From NCBI GenBank assembly GCA_023481285.1, contig JAMCWL010000102.1:756-43386 (forward strand): DNA of 42,631 nucleotides, in the 5' to 3' direction. A program made the translations under genes and the position numbers. The notes under the pieces were generated by a model. That model saw only the letters and a list, made by a program, of their open reading frames with translations. It ran no database searches and was not told where the DNA came from. Shown in pieces: positions 6,191-22,996 of the stretch. Positions within the stretch are counted from its first letter, which is position 1; each line of letters starts with the position of its first letter. The stretch is from Actinomycetota bacterium. Lineage in GTDB: Bacteria; Actinomycetota; Aquicultoria; Aquicultorales; JAMCWL01.

Positions 6191-6704
6191 TTTCTTCACC
6201 AACCGCCCTTTTGAGCCCGGAGATTTGATAGGAGAATTCGAGCGAGAGGAACGCGACTTCGAGGTGTTGGCGGAAGAAGCGCAGACTATTATTCTAACAA
6301 TCGGCGGAATAAAAACATCCTTTTTTTACGACCGATACCCTTTGGCTGCCCCGCAAAGTCGCCTTCACTCGATACCACTGGCCAAGATGGAGGAGATAGC
6401 GTCCATGAAATTACTAGCAGTTTCTCAGAGAGGCGCCAAGCGAGACTTCATCGATCTTTTTTTTGTGATGCACCAGGTGCCTTTCGACAGGATCGCAAAT
6501 ACTCTGGTCGAGCGGTATGGCTCTCATCGGATAAATCCGGTACACATCGGAAAATCGATAGTCTTTTTTGATGACGCCGGGTCCGACCCCGATCCCGATT
6601 ACATGCCAGGATTTGCGAGAGATTGGCAAGAGATAGAAGAGTTTTTTAAAAGCCGTGTCAAGCAAATCGTTCTTGAGATCGAGGCCGCTAAGAAGCGAAT
6701 ATAG
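6165..6704 (+). pseudogene. AbiEii/nucleotidyltransferase-type toxin, N-terminally truncated
   Basis: Frame upstream of the listed start reads NRPRSIDLDFFTNRPFEPGDLIGEFEREERDFEV (R-S-x-DLDFF nucleotidyltransferase motif) and is cut by TGA at 6162-6164. Confidence 0.7.
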
Positions 6705-6718
6705 CCCTCCCGGGCTTT

Positions 6719-6743
6719 AGCTATGAGCTATGAGCTATGAGCT
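6719..6743. repeat. Heptanucleotide tandem repeat AGCTATG x3
   Basis: agctatgagctatgagctatgagctc. Confidence 0.85.
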
Positions 6744-6758
6744 CCTTCGGGGCCTGCG

Positions 6759-7748
6759 TCATCCGGGGCTGCGGCCCTGGCGGACTCCGACATTTATGAG
6801 AGGCTTCGCCGGCCCAATCAACTTGGACTGATGCGAATCCCGTGAGCGCCGAGGCGCTGAGGTCGCGACCGCTTTGCTTCCTTGCGGCAGCTTTGAATTC
6901 CGCTCGCCGGAGAGCGTTTTGATGCGAGACTTAAGCTCCTTGACGACCGCTTCGAGATCCTCGACCGTCTTGAGGTTTATCTCGATCCTAATGGACCTGT
7001 GCCGGGGTTCCAACCGCAGGCGGGAGCCGGCGTTCGTGTCGCAGACGATGGGTTTGAATATCGGCGCGCCTTCGCCATGGCCCCCATCCCGATCGATCAT
7101 CGAGCCGACCAGGACCTCCAGGTCCCTTACCGAGAGATCGTCCTTGAGTACCTGCTTGAACGCTTGCTCTCTAAGTTCTGGCCTATCGTTAAGCTTTAGC
7201 AAGTAGCGCCCGTGGGCCGGGGTGATCCGGCGGGCGCGCAGCGCGTCAAGGATGGGTTTGGGCAGAGAAAACAGCGAGAGCAAGGCATTGATATAGCGCT
7301 CGGTTTTGCCGAGGGCCGAGGCGAGCTCCGATGGCTTACGGCCGAATTTCTTGGAAAGGATGTTTACGGCCTCGGCCTGGTCCCAGGTGTCAAGCCCCGC
7401 CCGGACGGCGTTGGTTACGAGGGCTCTCTCGATACCGGCGCCTTTTCCCTCCTCTACCACCAGGACGGGTATTTTTTCTTCGTCCCCGGCGCCGTTCAGC
7501 TTCAGCGCCTCCAACCTTCTTCGACCGTCGAGGACGGGGTATCTCCCGCCGCTACCCATGCTTGCGATAAGAGGGCAGATGACGCCCTTGCTTTTGATGG
7601 ACGCCGCCAGCTCGGTCAAGGTTTTGTCCTCGCCGCTTCTTAATTCGACCGCCAATTCGAGCTGGGATAGGTTGATGAATTTCAGCTCCATTACAACTCC
7701 CACCCGCCGGTTTGATCGGAACTCGAGTTCCCTTGCTATTATTGACAA
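6759..7748 (-). CDS. ParB/Spo0J-like nuclease/partition-domain protein (orphan)
   Basis: SIKSKGVICPLIASMGSGGRYPVLDGRRRLEALKL and HTH-like KFGRKPSELASALGKTERYINALLSLFSLPKPILDALRARRITPAHGRYLLKL; likely start at Met 7691. Confidence 0.85.
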   Translation of the reverse strand: MSIIARELEFRSNRRVGVVMELKFINLSQLELAVELRSGEDKTLTELAASIKSKGVICPLIASMGSGGRYPVLDGRRRLEALKLNGAGDEEKIPVLVVEEGKGAGIERALVTNAVRAGLDTWDQAEAVNILSKKFGRKPSELASALGKTERYINALLSLFSLPKPILDALRARRITPAHGRYLLKLNDRPELREQAFKQVLKDDLSVRDLEVLVGSMIDRDGGHGEGAPIFKPIVCDTNAGSRLRLEPRHRSIRIEINLKTVEDLEAVVKELKSRIKTLSGERNSKLPQGSKAVATSAPRRSRDSHQSKLIGPAKPLINVGVRQGRSPG

Positions 7749-8013
7749 TTAATATGTCGGTTTATATGTAGAACGACTTTAGGGTTACTGGCTATAGATC
7801 GCTAAGCTGCAGGCGGCTTTCATAAGCGGCGTAATTTGATGTATGTAAGCCAACGGTCGAAGCCTTTGAGCTTTTTCATATGGATTGAAAAATTAGGAAT
7901 TATTGTTAAACCAAAGCGACTGCTTGCTTTTATCAAGAAGTAGCGAAAAATGCTAGATCGCTTTCCAAAGCAACGGTCTTCGTCTAGTATTACTTGAGGG
8001 ATGGGTAATTGCC

Positions 8014-8955
8014 ATGTACGGACAATCGGTCAAAGTCTATAGAATAATTCGCGTTCTCTGCCTGCTTGCCGAGCGTCCCCGCAGTCCAGAACAGATCATC
8101 GACATCCTCTCCCAGGAGCCCGAGTTCGACTGGCGCCGATACTCGAAGGAGACGATCTGGCGTGACGTCCGGCAGCTCAAGGATGCCGGCATCGGGATCG
8201 TCTATTCGAAGGCTACCGGCAAGTACGAGCTGAAGTCGTCGCCGATTCGCCTCGAGTTCGAGCCTGTCGAGCTGGTGGCGCTGGCCGTTGCTTGCCAATC
8301 TATCTCGGAAGAGACGGGCTTGCCGTACGCCAAGGAGCTGGCCGGTGTCGTAGAGAAGATCTCGACGCTTCTGTCTCCAAAGAGCAAGCGCGCGTTGACC
8401 GGCGATCCTCACTTCAAGCTGAAATTGGAATCGGTCGTCGACTACGGCCCTCACCAGGAAATTATAGAGGCGATCAGACGCGCCGTCTCGACGGGCAGGG
8501 AGATCGAGATCCTTTACTACAGCGTTCACAGCGATAAGGAAGAGAAAAGGATCGTCGATCCCTACGACCTCTACTTCAGCGAGGGCGGCGTGCGACTTGA
8601 GGGGTACTGCCATCTTAAGCGAGAGATAAGGGAGTTCAGGGTCGATCGCATCCGGAAACTGAAGATACTTCCAAGCACGGCCGGCCCCTCGCGGAACGGC
8701 GACGCGTTCACCTTCAAGCTCTGGCTCGATCCGAAGTTGACGAAGTCCGTCGGCGAGCGCTTTCCCGGACAGGAGATCGAGCTCAACGAGGACGGCTCCT
8801 CCATCCTGACGGCACAGGCGACCAACCCCTTCCGCGTCATCCTCCGTGTTCTCGCCTACGGCGAGCGCGCCAAAATCCTCTCGCCCGACTTTCTTAAGAA
8901 TCAGATGAAGACCATAGTCGAGCGCATGGCGGAGCTCTACTCCGAAGCAAGGTAG
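8014..8955 (+). CDS. WYL-domain transcriptional regulator (WYL1)
   Basis: wHTH N-terminus; REIEILYYSVHSDKEEKRIVDPYDLYFSEGGVRLEGYCHLKREIREFRVDRIRKLKIL; C-terminal WCX-like region. Confidence 0.9.
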   Translation: MYGQSVKVYRIIRVLCLLAERPRSPEQIIDILSQEPEFDWRRYSKETIWRDVRQLKDAGIGIVYSKATGKYELKSSPIRLEFEPVELVALAVACQSISEETGLPYAKELAGVVEKISTLLSPKSKRALTGDPHFKLKLESVVDYGPHQEIIEAIRRAVSTGREIEILYYSVHSDKEEKRIVDPYDLYFSEGGVRLEGYCHLKREIREFRVDRIRKLKILPSTAGPSRNGDAFTFKLWLDPKLTKSVGERFPGQEIELNEDGSSILTAQATNPFRVILRVLAYGERAKILSPDFLKNQMKTIVERMAELYSEAR

Positions 8956-9028
8956 CCTAATCGCGACACTGATAGATATATAATAGGCTATGGATAAGTT
9001 CTCAGGATGATTAAGCTGCGGGGTTATC

Positions 9029-9459
9029 ATGCGAGGTCCTGTAGAGGAAGTAAAACACTGGCTGGAAGAGGCAGAGTACGATTTAGAGACCGCCGAGGAT
9101 GTACTTGAAGACGGTCGTTGGAACTGGGCTTGCTTCATAGCCCAACAATCAGCGGAAAAAGCGGTTAAGTCCATCTATATCGCTCGTGGCGAGGATGTCG
9201 AGAGGGTACACAGCATAAGCGCTTTACTAAAGGGTGATGACCCGGTGATGACCGCCGCGGGATATCTGGCATACCTGGCCTTGGCACGGAGCTAGAATCG
9301 GCCGTGGAGCTGGACAAGCATTATATAGCGACCCGCTACCCGAATGGCGTGCCTAACGGAAAGCCTTTCGAGTTTTATTCGGAGGAGAAAGCGAAGGAAT
9401 GTGTGGAAAGAGCGAAGCGAATAGTAACCGCTTGCCAGAAGACGTTGCAAGATATGTAA
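9029..9459 (+). pseudogene. HEPN-domain protein, apparently frameshifted
   Basis: First frame gives HWLEEAEYDLETAEDVLEDGRWNWACFIAQQSAEKAVKSIYIARGEDVERVHSI and stops at 9294; the rest of a HEPN protein continues in another frame: GTELESAVELDKHYIATRYPNGVPNGKPFEFYSEEKAKECVERAKRIV. Confidence 0.8.
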
Positions 9460-9815
9460 AGGCTCTAGTCGAGAAGCTCAATCCGGTGGCTGTCGTTCTT
9501 TTTGGCTCGAGGGCTACGGGTCGGGCGCATATCCAAAGCGATTACGACCTCCTGGTCATCGCCCCGAACCTGCCGGGCGATTTCTGGGTGCGCCAGGATT
9601 TGGTCTGGGAGGGAAAACCATTCAGCGTGGACGTAATCGCCTTTACTCTATCGGAAGTCATCGAAAGAGTACTCCGGGGGTTCGTCTTAGACGCCCTGCT
9701 TCAGGGCGTCGTCCTATTCGGAGACATAGGCGAGCTCAAGGCTAGAGCCGAAGAGCACGTCGAGCGCTATGGTCTTACCAGAACGGAAGCCGGTTACGTG
9801 AGAAGACCCGCATAA
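9399..9815 (+). CDS. MNT-type nucleotidyltransferase (HEPN partner)
   Basis: VVLFGSRATGRAHIQSDYDLLVIAP motif (GSRATG..x..SDxDLLV). Confidence 0.9.
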   Translation: MCGKSEANSNRLPEDVARYVKALVEKLNPVAVVLFGSRATGRAHIQSDYDLLVIAPNLPGDFWVRQDLVWEGKPFSVDVIAFTLSEVIERVLRGFVLDALLQGVVLFGDIGELKARAEEHVERYGLTRTEAGYVRRPA

Positions 9816-10000
9816 ACAAGCAAGTCTTACCATAATTTCTCTTTCCTATCTTTTTCAGACCGTCAAGCTGCTGACAGCCTGCTTTGCTAGCATTCCTATC
9901 ATCGGCACCTTTGGCAGTCTCCAGCCTTGTCGAATCAAGCGGATTGTCCGTGGGTCGATTAGGTAGGGAATTTTGAACGACTAAAACAAGGCGTGCAAAT

Positions 10001-10426
10001 ATGAAGATTGGAATCACGCGTAGAGGGTTCTTCCAAGCGTTCGGCGGCTTGATAGCCTCTTCGTTATTCGGCTTCGGCGTATTGGAGAAGGAAAAGAAGA
10101 TAAAGCGCTACCTGCTCTGCGAGGATTACGTGGCGGGTGTGGCTTACTACGACTTCGCCGAGCCGGAGGAGATCGAGACCCTTTGGGAAGGGGCTCCGGT
10201 TTTCATCAAGCGCGAGCCGGAGAACCCTCACGATCCGCGAGCCATCGAGGTGTTTGCCTGGGACGGGAGGAAGATCGGCTATATGCCGAGGCACGCCAAC
10301 AGGATCCCGGCGAAGCTCATGGATCAGGACGCCGACCTGGTAGCCAGCGTCATCAAACTGGGTGACGGCGAGGAAACCTGGCGCGCCGTCAAGATGCGAT
10401 TGGAGCTGGTGGTCAAACCTGCCTGA
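10001..10426 (+). CDS. HIRAN-domain protein with a Tat-like N-terminal signal
   Basis: N-term TRRGFFQAFGGLIASSLFGFG; then VAGVAYYDF...PVFIKREPENPHDPRAIEVFAWDGRKIGYMPRHANRIPAKLMD. Confidence 0.8.
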   Translation: MKIGITRRGFFQAFGGLIASSLFGFGVLEKEKKIKRYLLCEDYVAGVAYYDFAEPEEIETLWEGAPVFIKREPENPHDPRAIEVFAWDGRKIGYMPRHANRIPAKLMDQDADLVASVIKLGDGEETWRAVKMRLELVVKPA

Positions 10427-10542
10427 CGTTGGGTCTTCCATCCGGCGTCAGGCAGGTTTTCGGCGGCGGGTTAAATATTTGTAGGAAATCAAGCGGATGA
10501 TGTATTATTTGAGCAACGGTCGGTAATCGATAAATTGTTTGA

Positions 10543-10679
10543 CTGAAAGTCACAAGCTGGCTATATAAGCTGGCGAGCTAAGCCGCGACGCCGAAGTCCT
10601 GGCCAGCGGCAACCCGAAAAAAATCGCCCGCCAGGCCAAGAACAAGCTCCTCGGCCGTCTGCTCCGAAAGCTGTGGTAG
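10543..10679 (+). pseudogene. Basic ~46-aa microprotein, copy 1 (1-nt deletion, CTG in place of ATG)
   Basis: Reads LKVTSWLYKLA(r)/LSRDAEVLASGNPKKIARQAKNKLLGRLLRKLW* with a one-base gap at ~10577. Confidence 0.8.
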
Positions 10680-10698
10680 TCAAGACAAGGCATTAATC

Positions 10699-10742
10699 TA
10701 ATGATGTACATGGTGTATCATATGATATACAACGTGTATCGG
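10699..10742. promoter_or_regulatory. Operator-like palindromic region upstream of the wHTH-nucleotidyltransferase
   Basis: gatgtacatggtgtatcatatgatatacaacgtgtatcg: near-palindrome GTATCATATGATATAC plus repeated GTGTATC. Confidence 0.45.
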
Positions 10743-10752
10743 TAGGAAGACA

Positions 10753-11341
10753 ATGCTCGATCGTTTATTTTTCATCTAAGACCCGCATAGAAATCCTGGG
10801 CAAGGTTCTTTTGAACCCCGAGCGGGCGGTGTATGCCAGGGAGCTTGAGCGTCAATTGGGTCCCGGTTCTTACCGTGCGGTCTGGCTTGAGCTGAAGAAT
10901 CTGGAGGAGCTGGGCATTCTGACTTCACGACAAGTCGGGCGCACCGTCCAATATCGAATAAATCCGGACTCGCCGCTTGTTCCCGAGCTGACAGAGCTGT
11001 TCCGCAAGAATTGGGCGGCCAAAGATCTTATCGGAGAAGCGGTGAGCAAAGCTGGCGATGTCGCTGCAGCGTTTATCTACGGATCGTTCGCCACCGGCAA
11101 GTTCGGTCCTCGGAGCGATATCGATCTGATAATCATCGGCAGGGTCGATGCGCATGCCCTCGACGATGGGCTCGCAGATGTGGAAAGCAAGATCGGGCGC
11201 GAGGTCAACTACCGCCTGTTCACAGTGGAGCAATGGAAAAGAGAAGTCAGGGCGGCAACACCCTTCGTGCGCGAGGTACTGGAAGGCTCCAAGCTGTTCG
11301 TCGCCGGGAGTCCGCTTGAACTGGAAAAGCTGGCTGGATAG
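10753..11341 (+). CDS. Winged-helix + nucleotidyltransferase protein (MNT-type), apparent frameshift near its 5' end
   Basis: ARELERQLGPGSYRAVWLELKNLEELGILTSRQVGRTVQYRIN (wHTH) and FIYGSFATGKFGPRSDIDLIIIG (NTase); ATG at 10753 gives MLDRLF then needs one T removed from the T5 run at 10768-10772 to continue SSKTRIEILGKVLLNPERAVYARE. Confidence 0.85.
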
Positions 11342-11345
11342 CGGA

Positions 11346-11409
11346 GAGATCAGGCCGTTAAAAACTATCAAAAAACCGCTCTCACGTGGAGATCAGGCCG
11401 TTAAAAACT
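11346..11409. repeat. 21-nt direct repeat GAGATCAGGCCGTTAAAAACT, period 43
   Basis: Copies at 11346-11366 and 11389-11409. Confidence 0.9.
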
Positions 11410-11787
11410 GGCCCTGAGCAAGCACCGAGGTTGCTGGGGTCTGCTCGGCGTCAGCTTGATGGAGCAGGAAGGATACTCAAGACTGGCGTTTATCCAGCCG
11501 CACGAGACGAAGCTTACGAAGCGATGCTGAAGGCAGGCATGTCGTTGGTTCTAGCGCATGGCTACCGAGTTGAAGCAGGATCACATCACCTAACGACGGT
11601 CAGAGTGATTTCCAAGCTACTTGGACCGGGGCATCGGGGTCTGGCAAAGGCATTCAACGATCTCAGGAAATCAAGGCACGAACGCCTATATGACGGAGTG
11701 GATTTCTGCACCGCGGAAGAGGCATCCCGGGCCATCGACAGGGCGTCGGAGCTGTTAGCTCTTATTGAGGCGAAAATAGGAAAGTAG
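11386..11787 (+). CDS. HEPN-domain protein
   Basis: Helical ~130 aa; AGMSLVLAHGYRVEAGSHHLTTVRVISKLL...FNDLRKSRHERLYDG (R-x4-6-H-like motif); directly downstream of the nucleotidyltransferase. Confidence 0.75.
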   Translation: MEIRPLKTGPEQAPRLLGSARRQLDGAGRILKTGVYPAARDEAYEAMLKAGMSLVLAHGYRVEAGSHHLTTVRVISKLLGPGHRGLAKAFNDLRKSRHERLYDGVDFCTAEEASRAIDRASELLALIEAKIGK

Positions 11788-11818
11788 CTGTATGGATCAT
11801 TCCTAAGCTAACAAGGAA

Positions 11819-11865
11819 TCAGGAGATCAAGCTGAATAAAGACGGTTCTTCCATTAAGCTGTTGA
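11819..11865 (+). pseudogene. Short WYL-regulator remnant
   Basis: aatcaggagatcaagctgaataaagacggttcttccattaag = NQEIKLNKDGSSIK, matching WYL1 GQEIELNEDGSSIL and its nucleotide sequence. Confidence 0.6.
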
Positions 11866-11985
11866 TTTTAGGAACTCGAGTTCCATTAAATCAGCAGGTG
11901 GAAGTATTACTGACCTATAATTTTATCAAAAACATTTCTAGGTCAACGACTAAAATAAGAAGCAGCGAGAGCTCGATTTTTTATT

Positions 11986-12015
11986 GACCGTCAAGCGTTT
12001 GACGGTCTGTTTTTG
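11986..12015 (+). terminator. Rho-independent terminator-like hairpin
   Basis: GACCGTCAA-gcgt-TTGACGGTC followed by tgtttttg. Confidence 0.75.
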
Positions 12016-12090
12016 TTATCATTTGTACACTTGGAAGGAAACAGAGCGTTATTGTCGAAAAGAATAGCTAGAAATCGTTAGGTAGGATAG

Positions 12091-12231
12091 ATGAAAATCA
12101 CCAGATGGCTTTACAAGCTGGCCAGACTAAGCCGAGACGCCGAGGTTCTCTCAAGTGGCGACCCAAAGAAGATCGCCCGCCATGCCAAGAACAAGCTCCT
12201 CGGCCGCCGCCTTTTCAGAAAGCTCTGGTGA
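12091..12231 (+). CDS. Basic 46-aa microprotein, copy 2 (intact), not in the ORF track
   Basis: ATG...TGA encodes MKITRWLYKLARLSRDAEVLSSGDPKKIARHAKNKLLGRRLFRKLW; homologous to copies at 10543 and 14594. Confidence 0.8.
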   Translation: MKITRWLYKLARLSRDAEVLSSGDPKKIARHAKNKLLGRRLFRKLW

Positions 12232-12255
12232 GCTGGCAGAAAGTTAAGCTTATAA

Positions 12256-13059
12256 ATGGGGGTCTTTGTGGGAAAAGCGACCACCGACAATGCGATCGAC
12301 AGACCAGTTGATAGACCGAGCGAGGCGACCACCGTCGCTGATATTCCTTCTGAGGTTATGAAGGCTGCTGAAGAGAGCACCCTGCGCCACGACGCCGTCA
12401 CTTTTCTCGATTACGTCGGAGCTCACACCCCGGAACTTGCAGAGGATAAGGGATTGAAGACCAAGGATGTCTGGGCGGTAAACGATCTCTTCGCCGAGTG
12501 CGAGGAAATCCAGGTAGAAATCGAGGGTGAGGCGGTTACTCTAAGTACTGAAGACGAGGTCTGCCGTGTTGGCTTTATAAGGCGTCTCCTGCAAAGCGCC
12601 GGTTTCTTGAAGATTCGCCATGGCAGGTTGTCTCCAACCAGAAGGGCGACCGAGTTCTTGAAGGATGACTATTTCTCTCAGTTGAGGTGGCTCTTCAACA
12701 TCTGGTGGTACGAGGTCGATTGGACCCTGGACGCTGGTGACGCATCCGCCAGCACCAATATCTTCCAGGGAGACCGCAAGAAGCTGGCGGACATTCTTCT
12801 CTCGCTACCGACCGGCATGGGTGTAGCCTACCGCGAGCTGGAAAAGACATTGCTCAAAGAGTTTGGCTTGAGCTTTTTAATCGGAAAGACGGGCGCCGAC
12901 CTGCAGAGCTACATGAATATAAGTTACGGTGTGGTCCAGCCTCTCGAAATCTTCGAGGCCATCACCATGGACGTTACCGGCGATTTTGAAACGCTGCAAG
13001 ACCTAAAGCTGACGCTCTCCATAACAGAACTAGGCAAGACGTTGCTTAGCAGGGTCTAG
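12256..13059 (+). CDS. Hypothetical protein, possibly with a winged-helix-like segment
   Basis: Long ORF; VCRVGFIRRLLQSAGFLKIRHGRLSPTRRATEFLKDDYFSQLRWLFNIWW. Confidence 0.75.
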   Translation: MGVFVGKATTDNAIDRPVDRPSEATTVADIPSEVMKAAEESTLRHDAVTFLDYVGAHTPELAEDKGLKTKDVWAVNDLFAECEEIQVEIEGEAVTLSTEDEVCRVGFIRRLLQSAGFLKIRHGRLSPTRRATEFLKDDYFSQLRWLFNIWWYEVDWTLDAGDASASTNIFQGDRKKLADILLSLPTGMGVAYRELEKTLLKEFGLSFLIGKTGADLQSYMNISYGVVQPLEIFEAITMDVTGDFETLQDLKLTLSITELGKTLLSRV

Positions 13060-13172
13060 AATAGGTCGCAAATTCCATCAAGCAAAGGCGTCATTAAGGC
13101 AAGACACACGTATACTGGTTTAACTAGCGAAATCTAAAACCTTGGATCAGGAACCGCCCGCGAGGCCATCGT

Positions 13173-14126
13173 ATGGAAAACGGTACAGGGAAACGGAAGA
13201 AATGGGATGGATCGATTGCCATAAGGGCTCTCGTCGTCCTGAAGCTTATTTCCGAGAAACCGCGAAGCGTGGCGGAGTTGCAGGAGGCCCTGGAAAGAGA
13301 TGCCCGTTTCTTCCATCACTTCTCTAATGATGCTCTGTACGACGACAGAAAGCGCCTGGAAGAGGCCGGTTTCAACATTAAATACGATGGACGCATAAAG
13401 AAGTACCGCTTGATAAGCATGCCTTTCTGCTTGGGCATGGATGGGGAGGAAGCGCTGGCGCTTGCCATAGCCGCGGACGCGATCCTTTCTCAGGATAAGC
13501 TCCCATATCGTCCGGAGTTGGCTTCGGCGATGGCGAAGTTAAAAGAAGTGCTCGCGCCCGAAGTGATCAAGGGTCTTGAAACCAGCCCGCTCGTCAAGTT
13601 CATACTCCGCCCGGTCGTCGATTACCGTCCGTTCCTCGACACGATCGAGGACATTCGCCAAGCTCTCGCTTGGCATAGAAGGATCGACGTGGACTACGTC
13701 AGCCCGCATTCCGGCACAAGCAAGCATACGCTGGAGCCCTACGAGCTCTACTTCGACCACGGCGCCCTCTATCTAGAAGCCTACTCACGGCAGGCCAATG
13801 ACATCCTGGTTTTTCGCATAGACAGGATAGCCAATCTTAAGGTCTTACCGGATCGCTTTGAGCCGACAAGGAAACGAGCGACTTTCACCTTGAAGTTCAA
13901 GCTCGACGCCGAGATAGCCAAACTCGACGGCGATCGTTTTCCGGGCCAAACAGTAGAAATCATCGACGACGAGGTCGCTCTCGTAACGGCCGAGGTTTCC
14001 AGCCGTTTCTGGGCGATGCGTCAAATCCTAAGCTACGGCGAACTGGCCGAAGTCCTGGAACCGGAAGACCTCAGGGCCCATATGAAGCAGATAACCGAAA
14101 AAATGTTCAAGAAATACCAGGATTAA
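13173..14126 (+). CDS. WYL-domain transcriptional regulator (WYL2)
   Basis: Paralogue of WYL1: RIDVDYVSPHSGTSKHTLEPYELYFDHGALYLEAYSRQANDILVFRIDRIANLKVLPDRF...FPGQTVEIIDDEVALVTAEV. Confidence 0.9.
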   Translation: MENGTGKRKKWDGSIAIRALVVLKLISEKPRSVAELQEALERDARFFHHFSNDALYDDRKRLEEAGFNIKYDGRIKKYRLISMPFCLGMDGEEALALAIAADAILSQDKLPYRPELASAMAKLKEVLAPEVIKGLETSPLVKFILRPVVDYRPFLDTIEDIRQALAWHRRIDVDYVSPHSGTSKHTLEPYELYFDHGALYLEAYSRQANDILVFRIDRIANLKVLPDRFEPTRKRATFTLKFKLDAEIAKLDGDRFPGQTVEIIDDEVALVTAEVSSRFWAMRQILSYGELAEVLEPEDLRAHMKQITEKMFKKYQD

Positions 14127-14128
14127 GG

Positions 14129-14300
14129 GTGGGGCAGGCAATAAGCAGCCAGTTAGCTTTTGGTAGATTAAGAATCTCAGGGCTCATGGATCAAGGCGTC
14201 GACATTTCGGCGACGATAGCAAAACTAAGGCCCGGAGAAGAAACCTGGCGCGCGGTCAAGCTGCGAGTGGATATGGTTTTCCATCCGCTTGATGTTGCCT
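14129..14300 (+). pseudogene. HIRAN-protein remnant
   Basis: LMDQGVDISATIAKLRPGEETWRAVKLRVDMVFHPL aligns with HIRAN C-term LMDQDADLVASVIKLGDGEETWRAVKMRLELVVKPA; most of the domain is missing. Confidence 0.75.
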
Positions 14301-14426
14301 CGGTTGCATCGAGAAGGGTGCGAGTGTCGCTTTACCTTTTAGCTCGGGAAGCGTGTCATTGAGAGCAGCCCACCGGCTGGGTGCTGGTTATATGGCTAAG
14401 AAACATGCGTTTGAGCAGGTAAAGGT

Positions 14427-14470
14427 GTCATTGCGAGGAGGCCGTCGTTTAGCCGACGTGGCAATCTCGA
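14427..14470. repeat. GTCATTGCGAG...GTGGCAATCTCG interspersed repeat
   Basis: gtcattgcgaggaggccgtcgtttagccgacgtggcaatctcg with internal cgtcg...cgacg stem. Confidence 0.65.
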
Positions 14471-14495
14471 AAAACCAAGCGAGCGTTACGAACAA

Positions 14496-14527
14496 AGAGC
14501 ATTGCAAAAACAGAGCATTGCAAAAAC
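14496..14527. repeat. 16-nt tandem duplication AGAGCATTGCAAAAAC x2
   Basis: Exact adjacent copies. Confidence 0.9.
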
Positions 14528-14593
14528 GCTGTACGAACCAAAAGCGAATGCACTATCATAGAGAAGGCTGCAAGGAATCGGTAAGTGATTGAG

Positions 14594-14734
14594 GTGAACA
14601 TCACCAGGTGGTTGTATAAGCTGGCAAGGCTCAGCCGAGACGTCCAGGTACTCACCAGCAGCGACTTGAAAGTAGGTGGCCGCCGGATCAAAAAGAGGCT
14701 CCTCGGCCTCTAGCTATTCAGGAACTTCTGGTGA
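14594..14734 (+). pseudogene. Basic 46-codon microprotein, copy 3 (GTG start, in-frame TAG at codon 40)
   Basis: MNITRWLYKLARLSRDVQVLTSSDLKVGGRRIKKRLLGL*LFRNFW*; same 141-nt length as copy 2. Confidence 0.75.
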
Positions 14735-14789
14735 GCGGTGGTTTGCTGCATCTTTTTTATAAATCTCAAGCATTATTTAGGGATTACGA

Positions 14790-15512
14790 ATGGAAACAAA
14801 GCAAGCCCAAAGCCAAAAAGAACTGTCGTTTGTAAAGTATCGTCTAGAGTTATCGAGGGGCTTGCGTCGAAGCGAAGTCCCGCTCCTCCGTGGGTTCTTC
14901 GGCAACAAGTTTGATCAAGCTATCGTACATCACCACAACCCCGATGGCACTCTAGCTTATGATTATCCTCGTATCCAGTTCAAAGTGCTCGATCAGCAGG
15001 CGATTCTCATTGGACTTGAAGAAGGCTGCGATTTACTTGCTCGCCTATGGCTGGAAACTGACCGCGCGATCATCGGTGTCGAAAATCTAACCGTTCGACA
15101 AGCTGCGATTCAAAAGAGGCAGGTGCTGATAGGCGAGGCGGGCGAGCCGATAACCTATCGATTCTTGACCCCATGGCTTGCTTTAAATCAAGCCAACGAC
15201 AAGCGTTATCGTGATGCCGCCACTGTGCAGCCGCGCGAAGAGCTGCTTGGTAGAATTCTCGTCGGCAACTGCATCTCGCTCGCAAAGTCTTTCAAATACG
15301 ATGTCAAGTCATGGCTTGAGGCTGATTGCTCCAGACTGCGTTCCGTGACAACCTTCCTCAAAGGTACGCCTATGCACGGATTTATTGGCGAGTTCCAGGT
15401 TAACTTCCTGCTTCCCGAGCTGATTGGCATCGGTAAGTCGGTCTCCAGAGGCTTTGGAACCGTTATACGCTGCTATAGCTTACGCCCGGATAGGAGAGGA
15501 GGGGTTCGATGA
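14790..15512 (+). CDS. cas6: CRISPR-associated endoribonuclease Cas6-like
   Basis: C-terminal GFIGEFQVNFLLPELIGIGKSVSRGFGTVIRC (glycine-rich loop); first gene of the cas operon. Confidence 0.75.
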   Translation: METKQAQSQKELSFVKYRLELSRGLRRSEVPLLRGFFGNKFDQAIVHHHNPDGTLAYDYPRIQFKVLDQQAILIGLEEGCDLLARLWLETDRAIIGVENLTVRQAAIQKRQVLIGEAGEPITYRFLTPWLALNQANDKRYRDAATVQPREELLGRILVGNCISLAKSFKYDVKSWLEADCSRLRSVTTFLKGTPMHGFIGEFQVNFLLPELIGIGKSVSRGFGTVIRCYSLRPDRRGGVR

Positions 15513-17602
15513 TCATAGAAGATCTCATTCGTCTCGGTCGCTTGCTTTTCGAAGGACATATGGATCCAAGGGACGTGTTGAGGCTCGTTTCCGATGTCGA
15601 AAGTCAAACCGCGAAGAATTTCTACAAGCACGTTTTTGTAGTGGAAATTGCGGATGATAAGCGACCGGTCGTCACTCATCAGGTTTGGGGTCAAGAGATA
15701 AAGATTGAAGGTAAAAGCAAGAAAGCCGATTTCCTACCGGATTTCGAAAAGGCCATCGGGGCGCCCTTTGTTTTGCCGCAAGGCGGTAACCCACTTCATC
15801 CCCAAGGGAAATACGGTGTTCCTGCATATCCCTGCTGGGATAAGCACATTAAAAGTTTCCAGCAATCCACAGAAGGGGTTAGGGAATTTTTGACCGGCAG
15901 GCTGACGCGAACGCTGTCCATAGATTTACCGGAAGCTTTGATAGTCGAGATCGCTGAGTTAACACATCGTGTAGCCGCCGGTTTGAAGGTAGATGAACGG
16001 GAGAAACTGCTCGGAGTATTTCTTCTAGTTGATATGAACAGCGCGAAAGCCGCGTATGCGTATACCACCGAGCCTTCTCGGCACGATTTGGGGCATAGCG
16101 TGATTTATCCCGGCATGTTTATTGAGCCATGCTGCACGCCGATCCTTGATCTCTTTTGGCAGGCCAAGCTCGCAGAGGGGGCGGAAGAAGGCAAGATGGA
16201 AGGCACTTGCACCATCTGTGGAGGCGTTGGCGAAGTCATATCATCCTACTGTAAATCCTGGCCTTGGGCGCTTATCGAGTGGAGCTGCCCTCTGCCCCAT
16301 GGCGGAGATCGAAAATTCTTGGTGGAAGGAATTGCGCTTTGCCATGATTGTTATCGAGCGCTTGTTTATGGTTCATGCGTTTTTGATAAGCTTTCGCAGC
16401 CAATACACTCGCTTTTGATTAAGGAGATTTTTTCACCCACAGCCAACTCTGCGGGTAACAAAACTACAACCAATCGCAAGCTCTCCGATCTTCCAACAGT
16501 CTACGGCAGTGGTTATCTACTGCCTGTTCTAGAGATAACTGACGCTTACTTAAGAAGCGATTTTGCTGTGAACATCCAAGTCATGCTAAATTCGCCAATC
16601 GAACGAGATCCTTTTCTCGCAGGACATATAGAAGCTGTGACGGGGTTTGATCTCTGTCTTCCGGAAGACCCTGGAAACGATTTTCGGCTCAGCTTGCTCT
16701 ATTTTTCGGGTAACCTAGGTCGCGGTGATATACACCTGCGTGCTTGTATTGAGGACGTACTTCCGTCGACTCTTAGGCACTTAAAAACAATGGCAAGGGA
16801 TTGTGCGGACAATGCCTGCTTTTTGCTTCGAGCAATCAAAAATAAAGATGCTCTATCCGAAAAGCAGATTGCTTACTATAACCAAATTTACGGCTCGGTT
16901 CCATGGCTTTTGGCCAAGGCATACGGTGGTTCTTATGTTTGGGACCAATTGCAAGCCGTGCTTCACCGTCGCCCGTTGCTTTTAGAGAGGCACACACGAA
17001 ATGTATCCCAACGGATGCGAAGCCTTGCACCGCTGTATCCCGATCAGGAAGGTCGAAATGGCATTTACGATGAGGTCATCTTTTACCTCGCGTTCAATGA
17101 TTTTGCAACCGCATACAATAGTTGGTTATCGGTCGAAGGAGGAGTAAATATGATCGCACGCCCATGGCAAGAGCTTTTAAAAGTGGTCGCCGAATCACCC
17201 ATCGATGAGCTAATCTTTCAATCCGTCGCCGAGTTAGGGTTCGCCTGCGGCAACGTAATACGCCAATTTGGAAGGCAGTACTACGCGGTGATTCAAAAGG
17301 ATTATCTCAAACATAGGGTGCTGACCTTCGGAGCCGACTTAACGCCGGAAGAGGTCTGGAAACGTGGCCTATCTAGGATGTTCGATGTCGCTGAGCGCTA
17401 CGACAAGGTTCAACTTTCCGACGATTTTCGCAAACGCGTAGGTGTAATTTTGGATGAGTACCGCCGGTTGTGTGAAGATGTACAGCGGAATAAGGACGAA
17501 TTCATCGCGTCGTTCTGGTCCGGCTATGCTCTGCAGGGTTTTATCAAACCACAATCGAGCGACCGGTCTGTTGATGAGGCATTAATGAAAGTTGGACTAT
17601 AG
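15509..17602 (+). CDS. cas8b: Type I-B large subunit, Cas8b/Csh1-like
   Basis: Large protein with CTICGG...CHDCY zinc-finger-like cysteines, followed by cas7-cas5-cas3. Confidence 0.8.
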   Translation: MIIEDLIRLGRLLFEGHMDPRDVLRLVSDVESQTAKNFYKHVFVVEIADDKRPVVTHQVWGQEIKIEGKSKKADFLPDFEKAIGAPFVLPQGGNPLHPQGKYGVPAYPCWDKHIKSFQQSTEGVREFLTGRLTRTLSIDLPEALIVEIAELTHRVAAGLKVDEREKLLGVFLLVDMNSAKAAYAYTTEPSRHDLGHSVIYPGMFIEPCCTPILDLFWQAKLAEGAEEGKMEGTCTICGGVGEVISSYCKSWPWALIEWSCPLPHGGDRKFLVEGIALCHDCYRALVYGSCVFDKLSQPIHSLLIKEIFSPTANSAGNKTTTNRKLSDLPTVYGSGYLLPVLEITDAYLRSDFAVNIQVMLNSPIERDPFLAGHIEAVTGFDLCLPEDPGNDFRLSLLYFSGNLGRGDIHLRACIEDVLPSTLRHLKTMARDCADNACFLLRAIKNKDALSEKQIAYYNQIYGSVPWLLAKAYGGSYVWDQLQAVLHRRPLLLERHTRNVSQRMRSLAPLYPDQEGRNGIYDEVIFYLAFNDFATAYNSWLSVEGGVNMIARPWQELLKVVAESPIDELIFQSVAELGFACGNVIRQFGRQYYAVIQKDYLKHRVLTFGADLTPEEVWKRGLSRMFDVAERYDKVQLSDDFRKRVGVILDEYRRLCEDVQRNKDEFIASFWSGYALQGFIKPQSSDRSVDEALMKVGL

Positions 17603-17618
17603 GAAGAAAGGGAGAAGC

Positions 17619-18584
17619 ATGGGAGAGACGATAAATAGCGCTGAAATACTTTTCATTAAGTGCGTAAAAGATGGCATCCCAAACCGGGATCCACTGCGCG
17701 ATAGCGACGCGCGCAGAATATTCGGTGACGATGACAGACGAATTTCTCTGTCGGATGTGAGCATTAAACGCGATGTTCGCGATTACGTTATGGCTCGCTA
17801 TCCCGACGGAGGCGATGATAAGTCAATGTTCGTCTTTTGTCGGGAAGAGCGCACGCCGGATAACAAGCTGCTCGGAAGAGACAAGCTGGCAAAGGCTCTC
17901 TTGGAGCGTGCCGGACGTGGTGGCTCTAAAGATCTCGCGGGAGACCTCAAGGCGTCCGCTTTCGATGTGCGAGTCTTCGGCGCGGTTTTCAGTGTGGAGA
18001 AAAAGAGTTTTCATCAGTGCGGTCCGGTTCAATTTGGCTGGGCGCACTCTTTACATCCAGTGGAGACGAAGTACGTCCAGGGGACGGTCGTGATGCCGTC
18101 GAAAGATACGGAGGTAACCGAAGAAGGCAAAGAGGAAGGTCTGTCTCAAGGAACGATTTGGACGACCTACACGCTGCCGTTTGCGGTCTTTGCTATGCCT
18201 GGTGTTATTAACTCTCATATTGCACAAGATACCGGTATGACAGATTCGGATGTGAACAAGGTTCTTGAAGGTCTGTGGAAGGGAACCATCAATAGACAGG
18301 CAAGGGGACGAGGTATTCAGCAGCCGCTTCTGCTTTTGCACGTCGAGTATGCCGACCCATTCTTCAGAATAGGCTTTCTTGAGAATCTCGTACGCATCGA
18401 GCCCAGTCGCGAAGCATGGCAGAATAGCAACCCTCCAACTTCGGTCGAGGAAATTGCGCTCAGCGTCGAGCGGCTTGGTATGTCTCTTAAAGATAATAGA
18501 GATAAAATAAAGCGTGCCAGGCTCTGGCGTTACCAGCCCCTCAAATTGGAAGGCGAGATTCCGGCAGAGGAACGCACATGGTAG
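17619..18584 (+). CDS. cas7: Cas7/Csh2-like
   Basis: FDVRVFGAVFSVEKKSFHQCGPVQFGWAHSLHPVETKYVQGT, N-term ILFIKCVKDGIPNRDPLRD. Confidence 0.9.
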   Translation: MGETINSAEILFIKCVKDGIPNRDPLRDSDARRIFGDDDRRISLSDVSIKRDVRDYVMARYPDGGDDKSMFVFCREERTPDNKLLGRDKLAKALLERAGRGGSKDLAGDLKASAFDVRVFGAVFSVEKKSFHQCGPVQFGWAHSLHPVETKYVQGTVVMPSKDTEVTEEGKEEGLSQGTIWTTYTLPFAVFAMPGVINSHIAQDTGMTDSDVNKVLEGLWKGTINRQARGRGIQQPLLLLHVEYADPFFRIGFLENLVRIEPSREAWQNSNPPTSVEEIALSVERLGMSLKDNRDKIKRARLWRYQPLKLEGEIPAEERTW

Positions 18585-18624
18585 CGGCAGCGCTAATTTC
18601 GAATATCAGATAGGAGGTCAAGGC

Positions 18625-19329
18625 GTGGGCGTATTGGTTTTCGATGTCCGTTCCGATATCGCGCATTTCAGGCGGCCGGATACCCTCGGCACGCATGCCA
18701 GCTACCCCTTTATCACGCGAACGGCTTTGCACGGCCTGGTCGCCTCGATCCTAGGCCTCGAGGCTCTCCCGGAGATGCCCTTATGTGGGGTGCGGTTGTT
18801 GTCGCAGGTAAAATCCATCGCCCATGAATTAAGTTTTCTTGGCAAAGGTTGGGTTGGTGGTGGCCACGATTTTAACAGACCTACAGCTATTGAGTTGATA
18901 GTCAAGCCGCACTATCGGATATATTACCACGGGCCTTTGGAGGGTGAACTTGCTGAGTTGATTCGTGAAAAGCGCTCATATTATCACACCTATCTGGGAA
19001 GTGCCTACTGCCTCACCATCCCGGAATACCAAGCGCAATACGAAGATAGCGAGGCTACCATTTTTGACCCGACGGATCAGTTCATCACCTGTAGTACTGT
19101 TCTTCCTGTCAACGCAGTGCGCGAGTTGCATACCCAGGAAGCACGCGAGTACGCAAGGGTGGGCGGGATGCTCTACGAGCACCTTGGTAATCGGCGATTT
19201 CGTGGGTCGATTAACTTGATTTACGAGGTTCATGGGCAACCCATCGTTTTTGCCCCCGCCTTATCTTTCGATACAGCGCAGTGGCAATTTCGATGCATTC
19301 CTGATGAGGGGCTTGTATGTCTGTGGTGA
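18625..19329 (+). CDS. cas5: Cas5-like
   Basis: VFDVRSDIAHFRRPDTLGTHASYPFITRTALHGLVASILGLEALPE; GTG start at 18625 with AGGAGG upstream. Confidence 0.85.
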   Translation: MGVLVFDVRSDIAHFRRPDTLGTHASYPFITRTALHGLVASILGLEALPEMPLCGVRLLSQVKSIAHELSFLGKGWVGGGHDFNRPTAIELIVKPHYRIYYHGPLEGELAELIREKRSYYHTYLGSAYCLTIPEYQAQYEDSEATIFDPTDQFITCSTVLPVNAVRELHTQEAREYARVGGMLYEHLGNRRFRGSINLIYEVHGQPIVFAPALSFDTAQWQFRCIPDEGLVCLW

Positions 19330-21422
19330 TTCGTTTTGAAGAATGCATCGCCCGTCCCTCCGACAACGGCAAATTGTTCTGGCTTAACGGGCACTTGGAG
19401 GCCGTCGCCATGGATTGCGGTGATGCCCAAGGTAACCTTGAGGAAAGGTTGGCTTTTCTAGCAGGACTTCTTCATGATGCCGCCAAGAGCCATCCCTTAT
19501 GGCAGGATTACATCATCGGTCATCGGGCGAAAGGGCCGGCACATGCTCCCCTCGGAGCGGCGCTCTTTGCTTTTTTCGCCGATAATCTCATAAGCGAATG
19601 GGCTTTAGACCACACTCAAGAGTGCAAACTTTACGACCTCGCGCTCGACTGGACTCGGGTTGTATATGACCACCACGGCACATTGAGAGACCTGGAGGGA
19701 GATTTCCCTCCGTGGGAAAAGAGCGTTTCTTCAGCTGACATCGCTGTTTTTGCGAACGAGTGCGATTTGGATGGCGTTTTTCGGTTAGTCGCTTCGCATT
19801 TCGATGGTTCTTCGTGTGGCCCTGATGAATTTTATCGCTGGCTCAAAAAGTTCCCGAGAAGTTGGGAGAGACGCGTTCGGTTGGAGCGTCGCAAGTTGTT
19901 GATCCACAGCTCAACTGCTCGCGAGTGTGATGAGAAATCCACTTTGAAAGCTGCGACGAGAATGCCAACTTTGGCTGCTCGGTTAATCAAAGCGGATCGT
20001 TATCATGCGGGTGGCTATGGTTCTGTAGCCCTGGAATCAGACTCAGCTGTGGCCGGTATCGAGAATTTACAAGAAACGTGTTGTGCTAAGGCGAAGACTG
20101 CGCTGAGTCAGGGAGCCGATGAGAATTTAGTTAGACTCAGACAAGGAATTCAGCGGCGTGTTTTAGAGCGCTATACGAGGAATCCGGATGCATCTTTTTA
20201 TACATTGCTCCTGCCGACAGGCTACGGCAAAACACTTTCAGCGGTCAATGTGGCGCTGAGCGCATGCTCTACGGGTCGCTGTCGACGGATTATTTATGTC
20301 GCTCCCTATCTATCCATTCTCTCTCAGGCTGCTGGCGAGATAGCTTCAGCAACGAATGTCGAGGTTGTTCAGCACCATCATCTTTCAATTGCTGAGCAAG
20401 ACGATGAAGATCTGATCGACGCCCTAGAAACTTGGCAGGCACCCATGCTTGCCACAACATTCAATCAGTTTTTTCGAGCGATTTTTCCTTCGCGAGCTCA
20501 GCACTGTTTACGCGTTGAGGCGCTTCGCAAGGCTTTTGTAATCGTGGATGAACCGCAAATCATCGATACGGCCGTCTGGAACGTTTTCCTTCAGGCTTTG
20601 ACGGCAGCCAGTCTTGAGCTGCGGTTTCAGGTTTTGTTTGCGACGGCAACCTTACCGCCACTGGAATCCGGGATTGGTGATCGAGTGGTAGCGCTTGCCC
20701 CGCCCGTTTCTGCTGCACAGCGGTATGAAGTGCAGTATATTTCGCGTCCTTTGGGTGTGGAAGATCTGGCGAGTAGTGCTTTGAATGCCGTGAGCGAGGT
20801 CGGTAATGTTGCGGTTGTTATGAATACCGTGCGAGACGCGGCGGATATTTTTAAATCGCTATCAACTAAAGCCCGAAATGTGGTAGACGGGCTGTACTGC
20901 TTAACGGCTCTCATGCTGCCGTCTCATAAGGCAGATACGATTCAACGATTGAGACATGATCTTGCTGCAAATAAGCGTGTCATCGCGATCTGCACCCAAA
21001 TCATCGAGGCTGGCGTAGACCTAAGCTTTCGTGCAGTCTATCGTGCGCTGCCGATATTTCCCTCTGTTGCTCAAGTTGCAGGGCGTGCCAACAGGCATGG
21101 CGAAGGTTCACTAGCCAAGGTCTTTGTTTTTCCTTTCGAGCGCAGAGATGGCGTTGACTCAAGAAAATATGTCTACAGAGATATCACGGCCCGTAATCAG
21201 ACAGATCAGCTTTTCAACGAAAGAAATTCATGGCATGAGGAGGATATCGGGTTTTGCTTGAGCGCCTACTATTTGCAATGCTGGGAGGAGAATCGAAACA
21301 CGGCAGTATTGAGAAAGTTTGATGAAGCTGCAGGTGGTAAATGGAGCTCGCTTGCCGGACTGGAGCCGTTTGGAGCAAATGCTCCACGGATTAGCATGTT
21401 TGTTCCGCGTTCAGATATCTAG
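19317..21422 (+). CDS. cas3: Cas3 HD nuclease/helicase, ends at an in-frame TAG before its C-terminal domain
   Basis: HD region LLHDAAKSHPLW; Walker A LLPTGYGKT; VDEPQ; TQIIEAGVDLSF; QVAGRANRHG. Confidence 0.93.
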   Translation: MSVVIRFEECIARPSDNGKLFWLNGHLEAVAMDCGDAQGNLEERLAFLAGLLHDAAKSHPLWQDYIIGHRAKGPAHAPLGAALFAFFADNLISEWALDHTQECKLYDLALDWTRVVYDHHGTLRDLEGDFPPWEKSVSSADIAVFANECDLDGVFRLVASHFDGSSCGPDEFYRWLKKFPRSWERRVRLERRKLLIHSSTARECDEKSTLKAATRMPTLAARLIKADRYHAGGYGSVALESDSAVAGIENLQETCCAKAKTALSQGADENLVRLRQGIQRRVLERYTRNPDASFYTLLLPTGYGKTLSAVNVALSACSTGRCRRIIYVAPYLSILSQAAGEIASATNVEVVQHHHLSIAEQDDEDLIDALETWQAPMLATTFNQFFRAIFPSRAQHCLRVEALRKAFVIVDEPQIIDTAVWNVFLQALTAASLELRFQVLFATATLPPLESGIGDRVVALAPPVSAAQRYEVQYISRPLGVEDLASSALNAVSEVGNVAVVMNTVRDAADIFKSLSTKARNVVDGLYCLTALMLPSHKADTIQRLRHDLAANKRVIAICTQIIEAGVDLSFRAVYRALPIFPSVAQVAGRANRHGEGSLAKVFVFPFERRDGVDSRKYVYRDITARNQTDQLFNERNSWHEEDIGFCLSAYYLQCWEENRNTAVLRKFDEAAGGKWSSLAGLEPFGANAPRISMFVPRSDI

Positions 21423-21434
21423 CTTGGTGAGCGA

Positions 21435-21716
21435 ATGCGACGACTTCAAGAGAAATATTCGCCTGAAGGGCCAGAACAGTTACTTCAGCACTACATTGTC
21501 CCGCGGAGTTATCAGAAGCTTGATTTTGTGGAGCGAAAGCAGCTCGCGGCATTAATTAGCCAATACATGGTTCCGCTTCCTGACCGCGTGGCAAGAGAGA
21601 TGGGCGTGCAGGTAACCGAAAAAATCTGGCGACTCATGGATTCAAGCGTGTATTCTGAGCATACTGGTTTAGCTCACCTGGTGGGTGAGGAAGAGCAACA
21701 CACGTTCTTGGCCTAA
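21435..21716 (+). CDS. Cas3 C-terminal domain-like ORF, same frame as cas3
   Basis: Continuous frame ...ISMFVPRSDI*LGERMRRLQEKYSPEGPEQLLQHYIVPRS...LISQYMVPLPDRVAREMG...VYSEHTGLAHLVGEE. Confidence 0.75.
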   Translation: MRRLQEKYSPEGPEQLLQHYIVPRSYQKLDFVERKQLAALISQYMVPLPDRVAREMGVQVTEKIWRLMDSSVYSEHTGLAHLVGEEEQHTFLA

Positions 21717-21860
21717 ACAACGCTTCTGATTCATGCGACTATGGGGTCGGCGAACTGTCCTGGTGGCTTTAGTACAATGAAGACAGGCCAGCGAGTCAGC
21801 GCAGAATTGCGTGAACAACGCTGAAAATACAATCGTGTTTTAAAAGCAGGGATAAAAAAC

Positions 21861-22178
21861 ATGACGCTTAAAGACTATGAAATAGCCAAGGAGTTGAAAG
21901 AGCGTCTGTCGAAAACCGTGCAGCTCGTTGACTTCAAAGTCTTCGGCTCGCGGGCGAGAGGAGATGCCGACGAGTATTCCGATATGGACGTGTTCGTCGA
22001 AGACGCCTTGCTTGACAAGCAGTTGAAAGACAATATCCTTGATGTCGTTTGGGAAGTTGGTTTTGAGAACAGCCTGGTAATATGTCCCCTTATTTTTACA
22101 AGCTACGAAATAGAGAAGACATCTGCCAGGTCGTCCTCTATAGTGAGAACCATCATGGAAGAAGGCGTAGCCGTATGA
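21861..22178 (+). CDS. MNT-type nucleotidyltransferase
   Basis: FKVFGSRARGDADEYSDMDVFVE. Confidence 0.9.
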   Translation: MTLKDYEIAKELKERLSKTVQLVDFKVFGSRARGDADEYSDMDVFVEDALLDKQLKDNILDVVWEVGFENSLVICPLIFTSYEIEKTSARSSSIVRTIMEEGVAV

Positions 22179-22267
22179 CGGAGTGGAAAACAAGGCTTTG
22201 GTTAAGAGCTGAAGAAAGGTTATTTGAACGTGGAAGCGAGAGACAGGGAACTTATTCTGGAGTTTAA
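22175..22267 (+). pseudogene. Possible stump of a HEPN partner
   Basis: ATG overlaps the stop of the upstream MNT as in the next pair; MTEWKTRLWLRAEERL then unrelated. Confidence 0.3.
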
Positions 22268-22559
22268 GAGCAGACTGGCTCCTAGCATTAAAAAGCGGCT
22301 AAGAAAGGTTATAGTTTTTGGCTCGAGGGCCAGAGGCGAAGCGATGGAAGATTCCGATCTCGATGTCGTAGCGCTCGTAGATAGAAAAACTCCTCAGGTA
22401 GAAAAGGAATTGGAAGATACTGCCTATCAAGTCATGTGGGATCATGACTTTAGACCGATTATTTCGCTAAAAGTTTTTGACGAGTCGCGGTTTTACAATG
22501 CAGTTAAAAGAAGCCTTTCTTTCTATAGCCATGTTGAGAAAGAAGGGGTTTCCGTATGA
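22224..22559 (+). CDS. MNT-type nucleotidyltransferase
   Basis: VIVFGSRARGEAMEDSDLDVVALVD. Confidence 0.92.
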   Translation: MNVEARDRELILEFKSRLAPSIKKRLRKVIVFGSRARGEAMEDSDLDVVALVDRKTPQVEKELEDTAYQVMWDHDFRPIISLKVFDESRFYNAVKRSLSFYSHVEKEGVSV

Positions 22560-22936
22560 CCGAAGAAGTGCTTAAGTATATCGAAAAAGCAGAACACGCT
22601 CTTAAAGTAGCCGAAACTCTAATTGAGAGCGGTTATCCATCCGACGCCGCAAGTAAGATTTATTACTCCATGTTTTATGCCGCGCAGGCGCTTCTTAAGT
22701 CCGAAGGAATCGATGTCGTAAAGCACTCGGCGGTCGAATCCGCTTTCGGATATCACTTCGTTAAGTCGGGGAGGATCGACCCAAAATACCACAGGATGCT
22801 TTTGGACGCCAGGAAGATTCGGGAAATCGCGGATTACGATATCCAAGAGGAGATTGTGGAGCCGACCGCATCTCTTAAAATCGATGAAGGAAGAGCTTTC
22901 TTATCCGCGATCAAAGCTTTCTTGGACATCTCATAA
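22556..22936 (+). CDS. HEPN-domain protein
   Basis: YIEKAEHALKVAETLIESGYPSDAASKIYYSMFYAAQALLKSEGIDVVKHSAVESAFGYHFVKSG. Confidence 0.92.
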   Translation: MTEEVLKYIEKAEHALKVAETLIESGYPSDAASKIYYSMFYAAQALLKSEGIDVVKHSAVESAFGYHFVKSGRIDPKYHRMLLDARKIREIADYDIQEEIVEPTASLKIDEGRAFLSAIKAFLDIS

Positions 22937-22996
22937 GCGGTTTTCAAACCGCCGTCCAACATCTAGTAACACCGCCTGGTTATTTAGCGGGGAAAA

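Follow-up and report, generated by a model that had tools for sequence, protein, structure and literature searches.

Loci of clustered regularly interspaced short palindromic repeats (CRISPR) are already known to exchange their modules (reviewed in PMC4390879). WYL-domain proteins regulate CRISPR systems, a cyanobacterial precedent being the WYL protein sll7009, a repressor (PMC4012209), while another transcription factor, Csa3a, is encoded beside csa1 in Sulfolobus (PMC4333418). A nucleic acid such as RNA was proposed earlier, from structure, as a WYL ligand (PMC6789036), single-stranded DNA is given as the ligand of the WYL proteins PafBC and DriD in two more recent reports (PMC11804915, PMC12340889), and DriD directly activates the gene of a small division inhibitor of 71 residues, DidA (PMC4211646). 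Here we describe a locus in a 42,631-nucleotide stretch of DNA from an Actinomycetota bacterium of the order Aquicultorales (contig JAMCWL010000102.1, positions 756 to 43,386; hereafter the window, numbered from its first letter), in which three units made of WYL genes, a HIRAN gene, copies of a gene for a 46-residue microprotein and remnants of these genes precede a type I-B cas operon. Comparisons with related loci indicate that this microprotein gene probably marks a joint where CRISPR effector modules were added or exchanged, the adaptation genes, the WYL gene and the microprotein gene staying in place.

In relatives of the same order, whose draft genomes come from metagenome bins or the like, the conserved unit is larger than the WYL-HIRAN-microprotein set that had been proposed from the window alone: it comprises a cas1/cas4/csa1 adaptation module, a WYL gene, variable accessory genes and the microprotein gene, followed by exchangeable effectors. 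The order cas1-cas4-csa1-WYL-accessory genes-microprotein is complete in the relatives G003, G006 and G008 and partial in three others: G005 lacks the WYL gene, G001 lacks the microprotein gene and G010 starts at the WYL gene since its contig ends there. Compared with the query genes, cas1 is 81-95% identical, cas4 82-92%, csa1 76-89% and the WYL gene 69-86%. The accessory slot is occupied by HIRAN in G000 and G003, by DUF4352/DUF4064 genes in G006, G008 and G010, and by ARPP-1 in G010; in the window, no decayed csa1, DUF4352, DUF4064, ARPP or foreign cas gene was found above shuffle level. Downstream of the microprotein gene, the effectors are mutually unrelated (I-C, III-A, two I-B types and another Cas3 module): the set of G003 was read as type I-C, G008 carries Cas10/Csm1 (type III-A), the Cas8b of G006 differs from those of G010 and of the window, and G005 and G001 carry the other Cas3 module. 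When G003, G006, G008 and G010 are aligned two by two, each of the six nucleotide alignments passes through the microprotein gene and ends no more than about 10 nt from the stop codon of that gene, beyond which identity drops to random level. At this gene, the constant part of the locus gives way to unrelated effectors, so that it would mark the joint of their exchange.

One such event can be read from two relatives. The G006 locus carries two modules, in the order microprotein gene, 6.6-kb I-B module, 3' fragment of the microprotein gene (with a 41-nt identical tract) and Cas3 module, whereas in G005 a Cas3 module equivalent to the second one of G006 directly follows the microprotein gene, with no I-B module between them. 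The pair provides both a direct repeat of the gene's 3' end at the far border of the insert and a comparable locus free of it, and its plain reading, from the sequences compared, is an insertion at the 3' end of the microprotein gene. G010 also has a short tandem repeat of this 3' end, and the 3' end is repeated in L060 as well. At L055:1760-2930, a single HSDR_N-type gene is enclosed by the 3' end of the microprotein gene and a direct repeat of that same end.

WYL proteins are encoded twice in the window, by WYL1 (8014-8955; Pfam WYL 9.7e-19, WCX 2.7e-11) and by a divergent WYL-WCX paralogue, WYL2 (13173-14126; Pfam WYL 2.1e-16, WCX 1.2e-12), both matching the PADLOC models for CRISPR-associated WYL proteins (4e-29 and 1.5e-28, respectively). 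As for an N-terminal winged helix-turn-helix, the HTH_11 match in WYL1 scored 14.8 bits, below the cut-off of 25, and WYL2 gave none. WYL1 is 61-67% identical to the WYL proteins of G001, G003, G006, G008 and G010, and is orthologous to the WYL gene that the same-order relatives carry next to csa1. All six whole WYL1-type genes sit at cas loci, and a seventh, truncated by the contig end in G007, comes after csa1. A putative role of the WYL protein in defence or regulation, which the sequence-only reading had inferred for the module, is consistent with the published CRISPR-associated WYL regulators.

The microprotein itself belongs to a real, unnamed protein family that is under strong purifying selection. 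The family counts 50 distinct sequences, with a conserved core (LYxLARxxRDxEVxxSGxPKKxxRRxKNKxxGR) and ratios of nonsynonymous to synonymous substitution rates (dN/dS) mostly of about 0.04-0.15 among close pairs; these features are those of a protein, not of an RNA or DNA repeat. Searches with the 46-residue protein in Pfam, NCBIfam, PHROGs and the PDB gave no family match, and annotated phages and plasmids gave no match either. Members were found in Actinomycetota, Omnitrophota, Aerophobetes, Atribacteria and five IMG/VR contigs, and 36 of the 397 genomes of a phylum sample gave matches; in the window's own genome, the three copies are all within this locus. An AlphaFold2 model of the intact copy predicts two helices (residues 2-21 and 25-45; predicted local distance difference test 81.5, predicted template-modelling score 0.41), and the net charge of this protein is +11.

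The sequence-only reading had also proposed that WYL, HIRAN and microprotein genes travel together, and a survey of their neighbourhoods within 5 kb bore this out for WYL and not for HIRAN. A WYL domain lies at most 5 kb from the microprotein gene in 13 of the 33 other genomes that carry it (0.24 expected; P about 3e-20 if these are independent), or in 5/15 when counted by family (P about 2e-6), and this association is one with defence loci. HIRAN is present in only 3 of 34 microprotein-carrying genomes and is near the microprotein gene in two of them (G000 and G003), which means that its linkage recurs in a single other genome. At the flank of CRISPR loci, the genes do recur together, WYL and the microprotein forming the constant pair and HIRAN being one of the various genes that occupy the slot between the two. 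The WYL proteins linked to the microprotein are of three kinds: the CRISPR WYL proteins of this order; tandem-WYL, PafBC-like proteins in family f32, divergently oriented from the microprotein gene and with an AddB-like gene (named by inspection) on its other side; and RNase_T-WYL fusions adjoining it in families f27, f43 and f50. The fusions stand in three orientations (L131:5979-6908, L136:934-1866 and L137:2542-3429).

Neighbours of the microprotein gene other than WYL were recorded without a matched random control. cas6 lies immediately beside it in L064 and type I-G cas genes are near it in L141, RecT and a DNA methylase are found in L073, and phage integrases adjoin it in L026, L069 and L071. 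Neighbours linked to ADP-ribose were observed as well: ADP-ribosylglycohydrolase (L132, L140), a macro domain (L060) and ARPP-1 (G010, L132), with L132:7077-12712 spanning such genes. At L126:1852-10089, the microprotein gene is flanked by one helicase matching DruE models and by another matching DpdE/DrmD models, and since it lies between helicases of these types it may belong to another defence operon there.

In the window itself, all three units were found where the sequence-only reading had placed them, with WYL1, HIRAN, WYL2 and the microprotein copies recovered by Pfam cut-offs and tblastn, while several of their contents had to be revised; units and cas operon lie on the plus strand. 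In unit A, WYL1 is followed by a frameshifted HEPN1 whose halves, in a three-frame reading, are in different frames (9029-9459; Pfam HEPN 1.1e-20 over profile positions 1-61 only), by its nucleotidyltransferase partner MNT1 (9399-9815; NTP_transf_2 3.4e-9), by a decayed terminator that had been missed (about 9851-9895), by the HIRAN gene and by a first microprotein copy (10543-10679; tblastn 85% over 34 residues, in two frames), which is a pseudogene that lost its ATG start codon and suffered a frameshift. A weak WYL match after this copy (10736-10792, 24.3 bits) was dismissed as being within noise. Unit B opens with an MNT/HEPN pair that had not been assigned to it, consisting of MNT2, with an HTH-like N-terminal region (10811-11341; NTP_transf_2 1e-8, PADLOC PDC-M05A 3.5e-39), and HEPN2 (11386-11787; HEPN 3.1e-9, PADLOC PDC-M05B 1e-11). 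The WYL remnant predicted near 11819 does align, at 11790-11855, as the C-terminal part of a WYL gene (30.4 bits; five WYL queries match the same place), and none of 2000 shuffles reached its score. It is followed by the announced intrinsic terminator (11986-12014; 9-bp stem and T-run, -14 kcal/mol, z=-4.2) and by the microprotein copy 2 (12091-12231), the only one of the three copies that is intact, as had been noted. The decayed terminator of unit A aligns locally with 11977-12023, an alignment matched by none of 1000 shuffles, and no longer folds; with this homologue, units A and B are colinear, showing WYL, terminator and microprotein in the same order.

Directly after copy 2, unit C starts with an intact open reading frame (ORF) for 267 residues that had been overlooked (12256-13059), an orphan without match in Pfam, PADLOC, NCBIfam or PHROGs. 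WYL2 comes next, then a HIRAN remnant corresponding to the last 35 residues (14183-14287; 57% identity over 35 residues, E=3e-10, 0/2000 shuffles), which also agrees with what had been proposed, and then microprotein copy 3 (14594-14731; tblastn 61% over 46 residues), another pseudogene, with an internal TAG, a degraded core motif and a GTG start. The type I-B operon starts 59 nt later with cas6 (14790-15512; PADLOC Cas6 1.9e-62), which is followed by cas8b, cas7, cas5, cas3, cas1 and cas4 (15509-24934; PADLOC Cas8b 2e-188, the others named by ORF inspection and by similarity between loci) and by a CRISPR array of 12 repeats (25101-25941). WYL1 and WYL2 share only 37% identity, which means that unit C is no recent tandem duplicate, and the window's HIRAN is about equally distant from the HIRAN remnant (57%) and from the HIRAN of G003 (52%). 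Together, these distances suggest that the repeat is old or that it was assembled more than once.

The standalone HIRAN protein of unit A (10001-10426; 7e-17, 61.5 bits against a Pfam cut-off of 24.7) resembles HLTF HIRAN structures (E 4e-5). Both known copies, this one (ITRRGFFQAFGG...) and that of L028:9119-9541, open with a leader resembling twin-arginine translocation (Tat) signals (ITRRGFF... and ITRRTFVK..., the latter in G003). Such a predicted leader is unexpected on a DNA-end-binding domain and suggests that the domain may be exported or attached to the membrane. A search of GTDB genomes with HIRAN as a DNA pattern turned up no relative. Away from the microprotein, a HIRAN domain was seen less than about 1 kb from a WYL domain on the same strand (G304:C4:5326-5571 and 6476-6682).

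Adjacent nucleotidyltransferase and HEPN genes, as in MNT/HEPN toxin-antitoxin systems, are represented by MNT2/HEPN2, the HEPN gene of the first pair being frameshifted. A 21-nt exact direct repeat (GAGATCAGGCCGTTAAAAACT, twice) is found between MNT2 and HEPN2 (11346-11409), a further MNT-like ORF lies downstream of the CRISPR array (29992-30366; E=9e-7 to MNT1), and two ORFs judged by eye to resemble PIN-domain toxins of the VapC type are at 27285-27737 and 31425-31889 (minus strand).

Altogether, we consider it likely that a type I-B CRISPR-Cas locus has its WYL-led regulatory flank in this region, that the microprotein gene is the joint for its effector modules and that the three units are relics of repeated acquisition. 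At each acquisition, a piece ending in the microprotein gene would have been placed or duplicated beside the locus, older pieces then decaying or taking in toxin-antitoxin cargo. As for how the flank may work, the WYL protein would most likely sense a nucleic-acid ligand arising during infection or DNA damage and would control a microprotein-cas transcription unit, coupling these stresses to whichever effector module is docked. The microprotein could be a small effector or a nucleic-acid-binding accessory protein under WYL control, comparable to DidA under DriD. That its gene may be a dedicated docking point, at whose 3' end CRISPR effector modules and further cargo would recombine without displacing the adaptation genes or the WYL switch, and whose product would be a WYL-controlled effector linking the sensing of DNA damage or infection to the docked module, is a tentative proposal that we find rather doubtful at this stage.

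Several observations weigh against the joint and its control by WYL. The CRISPR association of the microprotein rests mainly on one order (six genomes with the gene at cas loci), meaning that vertical descent may be counted several times; most microprotein lineages have no cas genes, and many microprotein genes have neither a WYL nor a cas neighbour. As intergenic DNA diverges fast, the joint can only be placed in the interval from the microprotein stop codon up to the first effector gene. Directly repeated 3' ends are just weakly commoner for the microprotein gene (4/48) than for other gene ends in the same loci (9/324), with p=0.056 once one shared repeat is removed, a control that weakened the idea that such repeats are special to this gene genome-wide; when restricted post hoc to cas loci, the count is 3/6 (p=5e-4). 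No tyrosine integrase (PF00589) was found on the cas contigs, and thus none within the inserted element, and a search for the PafBC-type RecA-NDp promoter motif upstream of 50 microprotein genes did no better than shuffles.

Four other explanations were considered. The 3' end of the microprotein gene may be an attachment site targeted by a trans-acting site-specific recombinase, each integrated module leaving a displaced 3' fragment, much as the 3' ends of icd or tRNA genes are used by prophages. The full gene and the 3' fragment around the I-B module of G006, with the unoccupied counterpart in G005, are what this would produce, as are the 3'-end repeats of L055 and L060, and the integrase genes of L026, L069 and L071 are in line with it. 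Yet the cas contigs have no integrase, the window copies are nearly whole genes rather than 3' fragments, the general enrichment of 3'-end repeats is weak, and homologous recombination between microprotein copies accounts for the same facts, making a dedicated recombinase possible though on balance improbable. Alternatively, the strip between adaptation and effector genes could be a passive hot spot gathering varied genes, among which the microprotein would be a bystander without tie to CRISPR. The HEPN/MNT pairs, the orphan ORF and the decayed copies of the same strip would fit, as would the microprotein lineages without cas genes, but we consider this unlikely given that the WYL-microprotein linkage repeats with three WYL architectures, that the gene is under strong purifying selection and retained in six of the order's cas loci, and that it is the direct neighbour of cas6 in L064 and lies beside the type I-G genes in L141. 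The self-contained mobile defence cassette of WYL, HIRAN and microprotein envisaged by the sequence-only reading can claim the gene order of unit A, of unit C (as remnants) and of G003, and two-gene neighbourhoods of ARPP with HIRAN and of ARPP with a WYL factor have been published (PMC9503650); it is nevertheless quite improbable, considering the rarity of HIRAN near the microprotein, the other genes that occupy its slot in G006, G008 and G010, and the presence of every whole WYL1-type gene at a cas locus. Finally, the microprotein could be no trans-acting protein but a leader peptide that tunes the cas operon through its own translation. The gene is short, shares the strand of the first cas gene and precedes it by roughly 50-300 nt, both in the loci of the order and in L064, which would suit such a role; we nevertheless consider it very improbable, given a whole amino-acid sequence conserved across phyla at low dN/dS and genes that elsewhere are divergent from or downstream of their neighbours.

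The flank that we favour can be compared with five described systems. ARPP-1, WYL, HIRAN, ADP-ribosylglycohydrolase and macro domains, which recur near the microprotein, are also the components or neighbours of ARG/ARPP systems (PMC9503650), the available part of whose description includes neither a CRISPR joint nor the microprotein; the window has no ARPP or ADP-ribosylglycohydrolase gene, and no ARPP-1 similarity above shuffles was detected at its positions 6500-15000, ARPP or ADP-ribosylglycohydrolase genes being found only in the relatives G010 and L132. The WYL regulators of the sll7009 type (PMC4012209) are, as here, WYL-WCX proteins beside cas genes, while the present WYL gene lies by csa1/cas4, ahead of accessory genes, the microprotein gene and exchangeable effectors that it may regulate. 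Csa3a similarly sits next to a csa1-cas4-cas1 adaptation module (csa1-cas1-cas2-cas4 in Sulfolobus; PMC4333418), but it is of CARF type, so that the likeness is one of position and not of homology. As in the exchangeable modules of CRISPR loci (PMC4390879), one adaptation module is found here with different effector modules. Such exchange has so far been known mostly from conflicting trees; it is placed here at one small conserved gene, a placement without counterpart in the literature searched, and one insertion is readable from related loci with and without the insert. The unnamed microprotein family of Actinomycetota, Omnitrophota and uncultivated viruses keeps company with WYL, CRISPR, DNA-repair and ADP-ribose genes. 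DriD, which activates DidA, and PafBC are WYL factors of the DNA-damage response (PMC4211646, PMC6789036, PMC11804915), and PafBC-like genes also stand by the microprotein in f32; unlike DidA, which has one transmembrane helix, the microprotein is a basic protein with two predicted helices. If the WYL protein does control it, this would add a second example of a small protein driven by a WYL factor, now at defence loci.

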